A DNA stretch of 44,381 nt, taken from the NCBI GenBank assembly GCA_000436795.1, contig HF993193.1, positions 1-44,381 of the forward strand, given 5' to 3'. The position numbers and the translations under genes were made by a program. This document shows, in pieces, positions 646 through 44,381 of this stretch. Position 1 is the first letter of the stretch. The number at the start of each line of letters is the position of its first letter. The notes beneath the pieces are model-generated. The model ran no database searches. It worked only from the letters and a program-made list of their open reading frames with translations, and had not been told where the DNA came from. This DNA is from Bacteroides sp. CAG:1076. GTDB lineage: Bacteria > Bacteroidota > Bacteroidia > Bacteroidales > Bacteroidaceae.

Positions 646-735
646 GATCTCAAGAAAATTTGTACAAAAAATCAGAAAGTTTGTACAAATTTTCCAAAAA
701 CGTCAGCACGTTTTTAAGCAAACGTCTGCATGTCC
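646..735 (-). repeat. dispersed intergenic repeat, copy A
   Basis: Read on the minus strand, this aligns without gaps to 19948-20037. Shared layout: GGACATG (735-729), an AAACGT dyad (698-713, extending to AAAAACGT/ACGTTTTT at 696-715), 8 nt, TTTGTACAAA (680-689), then a second TTTGTACAAA (659-668) exactly 21 bp on. Spacer bases between the motifs differ while motif positions are kept. It lies just upstream of the galM-like gene. Function unknown; a protein-binding array or a REP-like interspersed element both fit. Confidence 0.7.
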
Positions 736-803
736 CTCCAATCATCTCCCTATCTTTTCTACTTTTTATATATAGAACCTATTCCATAAGTCCGGCAAAA
801 ACA

Positions 804-18612: not shown

Positions 18613-19842
18613 ATGGCATTAGTAAACGAACATTTTCTCAAATTACCGGGAAGTTACTTATTCTCGGACATAGCAAAAAAAGTAAACGCATTTAAAATTA
18701 CACACCCCGGAAAGAAACTGATCCGACTGGGCATAGGCGATGTAACCCGCCCTCTTCCTGCCGTAAGCATCGAAGCCATGCATCGTGCGGTAGACGAAAT
18801 GGCAGATGCCAAGACATTCCACGGATATGGTCCCGAACAAGGTTACGATTTTCTGATAGAGGCAATCATCAAGCATGATTTTGCACCACGAGGTATCAGC
18901 CTCAGCCCTTCCGAAGTATTCATCAGCGACGGAGCCAAGAGTGATACCGGAAACATCGGCGAACTGCTCCGCTGGGACAACAGTATGGGAATCACCGATC
19001 CGGTTTATCCTGTGTATGTAGACAGCAACATCATGTGCGGACGCTCGGGTACACTGGACGAGAATGGAAAATGGAGCAACGTGACTTATTTCCCATGCAC
19101 CGAAGAAAACAACTTCATCCCCGAACTACCCAAGCACAGAGTCGACCTGATCTATCTGTGTTATCCTAATAACCCGACAGGTACTACCCTTACGCACGAC
19201 CAACTGAAGAAGTGGGTAGACTATGCGCTTGCCAATGATACACTGATTATCTTCGACGCCGCATACGAGGCTTTCATCCAAGAACCCGACGTCCCCCACT
19301 CTATCTACGAGATCCGAGGCGCCAAGAAAGTAGCTATCGAAATCCGCAGTTTCTCGAAAACGGCCGGATTTACCGGCGTTCGTTGCGGATACACTGTCAT
19401 CCCGAAAGAAGTGACAGCAGCCAGCCTCGACGGACAACGTATTCCACTGAATCCGTTATGGAACCGCCGCCAATGTACCAAATTCAACGGAACAAGCTAT
19501 ATCACCCAGCGCGGTGCGGAAGCAATCTATACGCCCGACGGACAGAAACAAATAAAAGAAACCATCAATTATTACATGGAAAATGCCCGCATCATGCGCG
19601 AAAGCCTGAAGAAAGTCGGCCTCAGCGTATATGGAGGTGTAAATGCTCCGTACATCTGGCTGAAAGTGCCGGAAGGTACAACCTCATGGAAGTTCTTCGA
19701 CCAGCTGTTATACGAAGTCAACATCGTAAGTACTCCGGGAGTGGGCTTCGGTCCCAGCGGTGAAGGCTATCTGCGACTCACGGCATTCGGCGAACGCGAA
19801 GACTGTCTGGAAGCCATGCAGCGCATCCAGAACTGGATTTAA
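18613..19842 (+). CDS. dapL: LL-diaminopimelate aminotransferase
   Basis: A PLP enzyme of 409 aa that makes LL-diaminopimelate from tetrahydrodipicolinate and glutamate in one step, bypassing the succinylase or acetylase routes. The Schiff-base lysine is Lys249 in [20 protein letters not shown] and D-A-A-Y-E-A-F are the other aminotransferase fold marks. It uses glutamate, produced by the upstream gltBD, and feeds DapF, which explains the operon order. A strong terminator follows 31 bp after the stop. Confidence 0.96.
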
Positions 19843-19925: not shown

Positions 19926-19947
19926 ATCCGTGGAAACGTTTCGGCAA

Positions 19948-20037
19948 GGACATGCCGGCATCTTCCGGAAAACGTCGAGACGTTTCAAATTTTTTTGTAC
20001 AAATTTTCTAAGTTTTTGTACAAAAAATAAAAGGACT
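19948..20037 (+). repeat. dispersed intergenic repeat, copy B
   Basis: Gapless partner of 646-735 in the other orientation: GGACATG (19948-19954), dyad AAACGTC-GA-GACGTTT (19970-19985), 8 nt, TTTGTACAAA (19994-20003) and TTTGTACAAA (20015-20024), again 21 bp apart. A further AAACGTTT palindrome lies just outside at 19934-19941. It sits between a terminator and the regulatory region of glnK. Confidence 0.7.
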
Positions 20038-20620: not shown

Positions 20621-20977
20621 ATGAAAAAAATTGAAGCCATTATCCGCAGAACACGGTTCGAAGATGTCAAAGAAGCCCTGCTGGCAGCCGACATCGAGTG
20701 GTTTTCTTACTACGACGTAAGAGGAGTAGGAAAAACTCGTGAAGGCCGTATCTATCGAGGAATCGTATACGATACCAGTTCGATAGAAAGAATACTTATA
20801 TCAATCGTTGTGCGCGACAAGAATGTGGAGAAAACAATTCAGGCTGTCATGAAAGCAGCCCGGACAGGTGAGATTGGAGATGGCCGCATTTTCGTCATTC
20901 CGGTGGAAGATTCCATCCGTATCCGTACGGGAGAAAGAGGCGACATCTCACTTTACAACGCAGAACAGGAAAAATAA
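20621..20977 (+). CDS. glnK: PII nitrogen regulatory protein
   Basis: The 118-aa trimer-forming PII protein senses 2-oxoglutarate, ATP and ADP and plugs AmtB when nitrogen is ample. The T-loop carries Y-R-G-I-V-Y, so Tyr50 aligns with the uridylylated Tyr51 of E. coli PII. The B-loop T-G-E-I-G-D-G-R-I-F-V and C-loop R-I-R-T-G-E-R-G-D are intact. The N-terminal part differs from classical GlnB at R-R-T-R-F-E-D-V-K-E-A-L. Placement 31 bp before amtB is the usual glnK-amtB pairing. Confidence 0.95.
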   Translation: MKKIEAIIRRTRFEDVKEALLAADIEWFSYYDVRGVGKTREGRIYRGIVYDTSSIERILISIVVRDKNVEKTIQAVMKAARTGEIGDGRIFVIPVEDSIRIRTGERGDISLYNAEQEK

Positions 20978-29394: not shown

Positions 29395-30166
29395 AATACA
29401 ATTGTTTCTCCATCTTCAGGAATAATCAAGCGGTTCATATCTATTCCGTGATGTATGGCTTCGTTACGCAGAATTGCCCGTGTAGTCTGCCCATGATCGG
29501 TAGCTTCCATGTGGACGGCTATTAGTTTGATGTGTGTGGGAAGTTCATCAAGCATTGTCATAACTTCTTGCTCGTCGGGAATAATGGAACCTTCTGTCCG
29601 AGAAAATTCAGGGAATATGGCGCCTCCACTATTCACTATGATGTAATCGGGAAAAATTGTTCAATGGCCTGACGGATACACTCCTCCCACTTGCAATCAC
29701 TCATTATATAAATAGTAGGGAAACCATGCGCGGTAAGTACATAGCCAGATACCGGGCCCATCATTTCTCCAATCTGTCCGAATCCATGGTGTCCTTGGAT
29801 ACGATGAATGGTTAAAACTCCAATCGTTTTGTCTGTTTCAATACTCTCTACATTTGTAAAACCATCCTGCATAATGTTTCCTTTATCCTGCGGTTGTGTC
29901 AGAAACAAGATATCCTGCGGTAAATGCTGTTTCACTGTCGGATCATAATGGTCAATATGGTTATGTGTCAGCAACACCATATCCACACCATTCGTAATCT
30001 CATTCATCGGCATCGTAAGGTGTACTCTTGGTGTCTTATACACACCGAGAGCTGACTGCAAGGTACCTTTTTCGGCAAGCATGGGGTCAAGAAGAATCTC
30101 TTTCCCAGCATAACGGATTCTCAATGTAGCATTGCGGATCAATCGAATTGTAACTTTTTCTTCCAT
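29391..30166 (-). pseudogene. metallo-beta-lactamase-fold hydrolase (UlaG-like), frameshifted
   Basis: Two ORFs, 29636-30166 and 29391-29636, together form one protein of about 258 aa. The first has the metal motif L-T-H-N-H-I-D-H (His68, His70, Asp72, His73) and H-H-G-F-G; the second has N-S-G-G-A and H-M-E-A-T-D-H. At 29652-29656 a run of five A (five T on the coding strand) needs one more base to read through as E-Q-F-F-P-D-Y-I-I-V-N-S-G-G. A real mutation, a slippage-prone switch or a sequencing error would all look like this. It heads a three-gene unit with the two CX3CX2C proteins. Confidence 0.8.
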
Positions 30167-37790: not shown

Positions 37791-37862
37791 AGGTTCCTGG
37801 CGGATTCGAACCGCCGTACACGGTTTTGCAGACCGCTGACTAAGCCACTCATCCAAGGAACC
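37791..37862 (-). tRNA. tRNA-Cys (GCA), copy 1
   Basis: A 72-nt cloverleaf with acceptor GGTTCCT/AGGAACC, anticodon loop CTGCAAA (GCA), T arm GGCGG-TTCGAAT-CCGCC and discriminator T. Identical to 39494-39565. CCA not encoded. Confidence 0.95.
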
Positions 37863-39493: not shown

Positions 39494-39565
39494 AGGTTCC
39501 TGGCGGATTCGAACCGCCGTACACGGTTTTGCAGACCGCTGACTAAGCCACTCATCCAAGGAACC
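39494..39565 (-). tRNA. tRNA-Cys (GCA), copy 2
   Basis: Same 72-nt sequence as 37791-37862. Its flank shares GCGA on the 3' side and ATTGCGATGCAAAGGTA in the promoter with copy 1, so the whole promoter-tRNA unit appears duplicated. Confidence 0.95.
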
Positions 39566-44345: not shown

Positions 44346-44355
44346 TATACAATAC

Positions 44356-44375
44356 TTCGGTAAATTTTTACCGAA
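44356..44375. promoter_or_regulatory. perfect 9-bp dyad upstream of the DUF6377 gene
   Basis: TTCGGTAAA-TT-TTTACCGAA, arms 44356-44364 and 44367-44375. At 11 nt before the 44345 ATG, it could be an operator or a 5' leader hairpin. The rest of the region is outside the window. Confidence 0.5.
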
Positions 44376-44381
44376 AGATTA

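Follow-up and report, generated by a model that had tools for sequence, protein, structure and literature searches.

Dispersed palindromes bound by protein dimers are familiar from matS, the SlmA sites and parS, which mostly occur singly and whose cognate protein is known. Many REPs carry the tag GTAG. To our knowledge, few sequence-specific nucleoid factors are known in Bacteroidales. The consulted part of PMC4596501 presents BrickBuilt, a MITE of Porphyromonas gingivalis made of 1 to 22.8 direct-repeat units of 23 nt with a leader and a tail, and counts 19 copies in ATCC 33277. The consulted part of PMC6006769 describes TnpA-REP subclass 2.4 as abundant in Cyanobacteria and Bacteroidetes, and subclass 2.6, mostly from Bacteroidetes, as flanked by atypical structures repeated elsewhere. 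The element reported below is not described in the consulted portions of the open-access literature, including these two papers and PMC3733652, PMC8040213, PMC7366714, PMC3878776 and PMC5771137. We attribute it, at a probability of about one half, to arrays of helically phased sites for a putative dimeric DNA-binding protein, REP/BIME-like in their distribution. What the computation shows is that the element is present in many copies, phased and intergenic, that a relative, G262, keeps its place and orientation, and that sequence outside the palindromes turns over.

The element occurs twice in the window, i.e. the whole stretch of 44,381 nucleotides from Bacteroides sp. CAG:1076 that was analysed. 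Copies A and B (Table 1) share the layout AAACGT-N4-ACGTTT, N8, TTTGTACAAA, N11, TTTGTACAAA. An earlier note on this DNA had described an inverted, gapless repeat in which an AAACGT dyad is followed, after exactly 8 nt, by palindromes 21 bp apart start-to-start; this description is exact for both copies, which are identical in 58 of 88 columns of the profile register (the register of that note's alignment). The word TTTGTACAAA was counted four times against 0.06 expected, and none of 100 shuffles reached four. Similarly, AAACGTnnnnACGTTT was found at both dyads against 0.10 expected with one mismatch allowed, and no shuffle reached two. The strict compound pattern is present exactly twice, compared to about 3e-14 expected from base composition. 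Read in array orientation, each copy consists of a weak dyad (D1), the AAACGT-N4-ACGTTT dyad (D2) and the two TTTGTACAAA palindromes, with 21 bp from the centre of D2 to that of the first palindrome and 21 bp from the first palindrome to the second. The three sites recognised earlier, the dyad and two TTTGTACAAA, are thus confirmed, but the row is extended by weaker dyads beyond D2 in both copies and comprises more than three. In copy A, the outer dyad AAACGTCTGCATGT (720-733) is centred 22 bp from D2 in the profile register, and 18 bp from D2 at the best centre of a symmetry scan. In copy B, the centre of ATGCCGGCAT lies 21 bp from that of D2, with an extra palindrome, GAAACGTTTC, 19 bp further out.

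Table 1. Coordinates of the two palindrome arrays and their component sites in the window.
Feature	Position	Strand	Evidence or remark
Copy A array	646..741 (profile register 654-741)	-	profile 50.8 bits at 654, minus strand; upstream of galM-like gene
TTTGTACAAA, first palindrome of copy A (array orientation)	680..689	.	word count vs shuffles
TTTGTACAAA, second palindrome of copy A	659..668	.	word count vs shuffles
AAACGTCAGCACGTTT dyad (D2) of copy A, centre 21 bp from nearer TTTGTACAAA	698..713	.	word count vs shuffles
Outer weak dyad (D1) of copy A	719..736	.	profile register; symmetry scan prefers centre 723.5
Copy B array, between dapL and P-II-like gene	19932..20037	+	profile 47.2 bits at 19942, plus strand
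GAAACGTTTC palindrome, outer end of copy B, centre 19937.5	19933..19942	.	
D1 of copy B, holding perfect palindrome ATGCCGGCAT (19952-19961, centre 19956.5)	19947..19964	.	
AAACGTCGAGACGTTT dyad (D2) of copy B, centre 19977.5	19970..19985	.	word count vs shuffles
TTTGTACAAA, first palindrome of copy B	19994..20003	.	word count vs shuffles
TTTGTACAAA, second palindrome of copy B	20015..20024	.	word count vs shuffles

Both copies lie outside the larger open reading frames. Copy A precedes the galM-like gene (837-1973) by 96 bp, and copy B is flanked by the LL-diaminopimelate aminotransferase gene dapL (18613-19842) and a P-II-like gene (20621-20977); behind the latter come amt and a large gene resembling glutamine synthetase. 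Copy A overlaps with three short ORF calls (31-52 aa), which are taken as chance; as the note had supposed, the element is not evidently coding. Elsewhere in the window, two tRNA genes (37791-37862 and 39494-39565) are located within identical 80-nt stretches 1703 bp apart. The last 33 bases (44349-44381, cut by the window edge) match perfectly over 32-33 nt the start of a conserved repeat of about 200 nt in G262 (L196, L200 and L202), and near-perfectly at L193 and on contig C24 of the same genome.

Over 20 kb, G262 and the window are syntenic, with 76-83% DNA identity in three long blocks (~80%); with gaps, the synteny spans window positions 1-26425. An ungapped 88-column profile was built from 31 G262 array contexts, excluding window sequence. 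Applied to the window, it returned copies A and B at the scores in Table 1, the next best place scoring -1.0 bits and the best of 20 Markov sequences -0.6. On contig C24, chosen for synteny and outside the profile training, only two hits exceeded 0, one at 29986 on the minus strand (22.0 bits) and one at 49149 on the plus strand (35.8 bits). They fall in the two gaps orthologous to those of the window copies and agree with these in orientation; the flanks of the arrays align poorly with the window. The profile was also run over 1.256 Mb of G262, comprising eight contigs picked from those with listed pairs plus the syntenic contig. It found 42 places above 0 bits and 31 above 7 bits, compared to 3 above 0 (maximum 1.7 bits) in the reversed-sequence control. 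Ten of the 31 hits are training copies and 21 are others; two, C27:73227 and 73318, belong to a single longer array. The searched contigs hold 13 of the 39 G262 pairs (at most three mismatches) in about 29% of the genome, a selection bias that is small but present. Length scaling suggests about 100 arrays per G262 genome, as extrapolated from these non-randomly chosen contigs. Neither of the outcomes that the earlier note had named as speaking against it, a family of two copies only or a loss of spacing in further ones, was seen in G262, where 31 hits keep the spacing.

Exact TTTGTACAAA, a set not selected by spacing, occurs at 53 sites genome-wide in G262, against 14 for the reversed word. 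Among the 50 sites listed of these 53, only two trios lie within 90 bp, and their members are 21/43/64 and 21/44/65 bp apart. In the 1.256 Mb, which was partly chosen for holding N11 pairs, 80 sites (at most one mismatch, GTAC intact) form 15 pairs within 90 bp, all of them in phase as claimed from the window: 8 at 21, 3 at 22, 2 at 43, 1 at 44 and 1 at 65 bp. Allowing two mismatches, 16 of 31 pairs lie at 21-22 bp. Three unrelated control palindromes gave no pairs in the same sequence, from only 35, 8 and 5 sites versus 80. Dyad symmetry averaged over 33 pair-chosen contexts peaks about every 10.7 bp, outside the pair too, and the spacers between palindromes differ among copies (members chosen by the pair). 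Genome-wide and in the 1.256 Mb of G262, the sites are hence found at integral helix turns irrespective of the intervening sequence.

By array centre, 30 of the 31 G262 hits are intergenic, the remaining one lying inside a 102-aa ORF call; two of the 30 reach into the end of an ORF (49 and 23 bases). The intergenic arrays are distributed over 11 convergent, 14 tandem and 5 divergent gaps. Compared to a background of 21%, this amounts to a modest convergent bias (p 0.044 by count, 0.037 by length). A stronger bias of 21 in 41 rows was discarded as overstated, as its loci had been chosen for a pair, its rows overlapped and two came from the window. Array orientation relative to genes is mixed in G262. 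The inspection of neighbouring genes suggested by the earlier note extended to ten sampled flanking genes, and their scanned proteins revealed no common functional theme.

These data bear on whether the arrays are operators of one transcription factor for the downstream genes (galM-like; P-II-like, ammonium transporter and glutamine synthetase-like), which we regard as very unlikely. Both window copies do lie upstream of a gene start, by about 96 and 580 bp, and the consulted part of PMC3878776 reports pairs of sites with 21-bp spacing on the same face for HTCS regulators of Bacteroides. However, 11 of 30 G262 copies sit between convergent genes, the sampled neighbours share no theme and a long distance separates copy B from the start of the P-II-like gene. 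Given the lack of a theme among the sampled neighbours and the mixed orientation to genes, the arrays would more probably have an architectural or insulating role across the chromosome than control a single metabolic regulon.

A role as RNA elements, with dyads pairing into bidirectional terminators or into hairpins at mRNA ends, would be in line with the convergent enrichment and with the strong RNA folding of the window copies (z -5.42 and -4.95). Moreover, in some G262 copies (e.g. L221 and L212) D1 and D2 form long inverted repeats followed by a T run, as judged by eye. The G262 orthologues fold differently: the orthologue of copy B shows hardly any folding (z -1.08, matched by 27 of 200 shuffles), and the orthologue of copy A adopts a different fold (z -3.10). 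A terminator scan (G+C-rich hairpin plus T run) found no such site inside either window array. Separate hairpins are present upstream of copy A (terminator-like, 338-371) and, by eye, with a T run after dapL and before copy B. Also, 19 of the 30 G262 arrays lie in tandem or divergent gaps.

Covariation was assessed with row shuffles on 49 non-redundant members, two of them from the window, after dropping 24 from 73. The two TTTGTACAAA palindromes do not covary with each other (z -0.16), and their pairing as one conserved hairpin was rejected on this result; nor was a pairing signal detected in the TTTGTACAAA flanks (z -0.44) or the spacer (z 0.21) of these members. Self-pairing of D2 is weakly above shuffles (z 2.5) and that of D1 is not (z -0.7). 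The similarity between D1 and D2, which could be taken to favour a hairpin in its inverted form, is weak (z 2.1), and since direct similarity is just as high (z 2.2) it gives no preference to a hairpin. Palindrome 2 gave a self z of 6.6, which we think is due to degenerate members without palindrome 2. In a cruder test on all 73 members, with reverse duplicates and column-wise shuffles, z was 6.4 for D2 self, 3.0 for D1 self and 5.6 for D1 with D2. Overall, stem covariation is weak or absent. Counts of G-T and A-C mismatches are similar in the palindromes (15/17 and 16/17) and in D1 (26/25), but 16/29 in D2. Above the gathering score, Rfam matched only three tRNAs in the window and nothing at the 11 array loci searched, and identity with a known RNA family was dropped on this basis. 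The combined covariation and folding pattern is read as conservation at the DNA level, short of proof, and an RNA function appears distinctly unlikely.

Across the tool-defined family, the element is not general. The exact dyad plus one palindrome (gap 4-14) was found in 0 of 301 genomes of the tool-defined family, G262 included. The whole element with up to three mismatches was matched in 1 of 399, again G262, three times, with the dyads AAACAT-ATGTTT (twice) or AAACTT-ATGTTT. As the family is mostly without the element, a conserved essential role is unlikely. At three mismatches, the pair TTTGTACAAA-N11-TTTGTACAAA occurs 39 times in G262 versus 3 for the reversed control, and 11 versus 0 in G027. 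In the other 17 genomes of this search, G060 (4/0), G053 (3/0) and G096 (4/1) are somewhat above control and most are at or near it. At two mismatches or fewer, 30 of 301 genomes match. Six of these hold two or more pairs (G262 28, G157 26, G086 23, G015 5, G261 4, G027 2), and the 24 with a single match are not clearly above chance. The reversed control of this search matches in 15 genomes, among them G248, whose 28 pairs of the form AAACATGTTT-N11-AAACATGTTT probably belong to another phased palindrome family. Within the 'genus' of G262 (61 genomes), 40 have a match at three mismatches. A clear excess over control is limited to few (G262 39/3, G015 13/0, G424 12/2, G402 8/1, G421 8/2, G285 8/3), and in several the control matches exceed the forward ones. 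The exact pair pattern had no hits in IMG/VR viral contigs, and a phage origin was set aside.

The genome closest by DapL protein (90%) among 101 genomes, a set to which G262 does not belong, is G096; its dapL to P-II gap is kept and holds no copy by profile search. Downstream of this dapL, where the array is also missing, the P-II-like gene has an early in-frame stop by eye (L169 2320-2580, G096:C6 24319-24579). In G010, no copy is found in 20 kb around dapL, and its P-II match lies elsewhere. DNA query matches are present in 7 of the 15 genomes of the G096 genus, and the pair pattern in 1 of 15, counts that carry no information on the element itself.

The dyad differs between the window and G262. 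Perfect AAACGT..ACGTTT occurs twice in the window and not at all in the 1.256 Mb of G262, whereas AAACAT..ATGTTT is absent from the window and occurs 11 times in that sequence. The AAACGT dyad of the earlier note consequently holds for both window copies and not for G262, where the commonest left half is AAACAT. Furthermore, the window copies resemble each other more closely than their own G262 orthologues, with which each shares 47 of 88 columns. Such mutual likeness could result from gene conversion, from recent spread or from co-evolution with a binding protein.

The serious rival is a selfish or domesticated REP/MITE-like repeat, propagated by a transposase whose substrate is folded single-stranded DNA, with phasing as a consequence of founder copying. 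We consider this somewhat unlikely. It would account for the patchy distribution, the genome-specific consensus and the mutual likeness of the window copies. In G086, moreover, the linkers read GTAG and one of two Y1_Tnp loci, L269, lies no more than 1.5 kb from an array. Conversely, no Y1_Tnp match (PF01797) was found in G262 (a draft genome), G157, G027 or G261, and 9 of 10 Y1_Tnp loci in five genomes are without an array within 1.5 kb. Other points against it are that the linker in the window and G262 is GTAC, not GTAG, that spacers vary between copies while spacing is fixed, even where unselected, that both window copies have orthologous G262 copies in place and that 21-bp phasing recurs with unrelated dyads. 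A RAYT origin thus has little support except in G086, and a transposase of non-Y1 type is a possible spreader. The GTAG-linked arrays of G086 (L264 and L269, one array near a Y1_Tnp gene) may represent a REP/RAYT link. Should the arrays be mobile repeats, they would be of an unusual REP-like kind, strictly phased and with no RAYT found in G262.

In most of 17 stretches from pair-bearing genomes, 17-bp dyads of the form AAA-N11-TTT, usually four of them, stand in a row with 4-bp linkers between neighbours, so that TTTGTACAAA is the junction of neighbouring dyads. Across 31 loci, the dyad score is 3.74 at -21 bp and 3.58 at +21 bp compared to a baseline of 1.78, where only the inner three bases of the flanking dyads overlap the selected pair; several of these loci are without neighbouring dyads and are probably chance pairs. 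Arrays of 21-bp period with different dyad sequences are present in other genomes, and they may form one class with the window element. The conserved word is GTAC in the window and G262, in place of the G086 linker. A rather unlikely extension, offered tentatively, is a family-wide, fast-diverging chromosome-organising system of Bacteroidaceae-like bacteria. It would consist of three to five such dyads (4-bp linkers, e.g. GTAC) every 21 bp in intergenic gaps, with a co-evolving candidate DNA-binding protein that shifts its specificity while the geometry stays fixed.

Several further repeats were observed. G157 holds a second tandem array of ~11/22-bp, TTTTTGGGGTATTTTTACTCC-like units (L249 2399-2868). 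Members of the Roseobacter group (Mameliella, Shimia and Octadecabacter; L002, L004, L006, L013, L016 and similar) have several TTTGTACAAA pairs with N20-22, i.e. three helix turns. In Clostridia (L001, L003 and L078), TTTGTACAAA pairs with N10-11 adjoin genes whose products carry the C-terminal DNA-binding domain of Spo0A (3 of 10 scanned proteins). A scan of contigs comprising at least 119 stretches gave spacing counts that peak at N11 and N20, peaks to which no proof value is given because the set is phylogenetically mixed.

In summary, the arrays look like maintained docking sites for a putative DNA-binding protein. Each copy would be a member of a dispersed intergenic family of short AT-rich palindromes, spaced every two helix turns and for that reason all on one face of the double helix. 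A dimeric, sequence-specific protein may occupy each palindrome, with neighbouring dimers touching on that face, presumably in a cooperative manner. Its preference would drift by lineage, from AAACGT in the window to mostly AAACAT in G262, and the array would act as a chromosomal site rather than as a promoter operator. A part in nucleoid structure, segregation or regulation, as suggested in the earlier note, is conjectural. Weighing against the protein-site reading are the lack of the element in most genomes of the tool-defined family, the empty dapL to P-II gap of G096, the weak D2 and D1 with D2 covariation signals, the strong RNA folding of the window copies and the partial selection of the searched contigs for N11 pairs. 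If protein-bound, the arrays would give access to chromosome organisation or gene insulation in Bacteroidales. Fixed geometry combined with changing palindromes would also allow one to ask whether a recognition region shifts in step with the dyad.

Compared to known systems, the arrays resemble REP/BIME with RAYT (TnpA-REP) as short dispersed intergenic palindromes, many per genome, in genome-specific families and multi-palindrome clusters; the G262 hits are of this type, and G086 shares the GTAG linker. They differ in their 21-bp phasing and unconserved spacers. A Y1 transposase flanked by repeats was not found in G262, and elsewhere only the L269 locus of G086, one of ten, lies near an array. 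In place of a GTAG/GTGG foot at the hairpin base, the window and G262 read GTAC. With matS, SlmA sites and parS, the arrays share dispersed palindromes and, putatively, binding by dimers. As far as the consulted part of PMC4596501 describes BrickBuilt, both are intergenic in Bacteroidales with tandem units near two helix turns. BrickBuilt, however, consists of 23-nt direct repeats with leader and tail, whereas the arrays space palindromes at 21-22 bp, with divergent spacers and no leader or tail recognised. Finally, the Bacteroides HTCS operators in the consulted part of PMC3878776 likewise place two sites 21 bp apart on one DNA face, but as direct repeats of single regulons, in contrast to the dispersed palindrome arrays described here.
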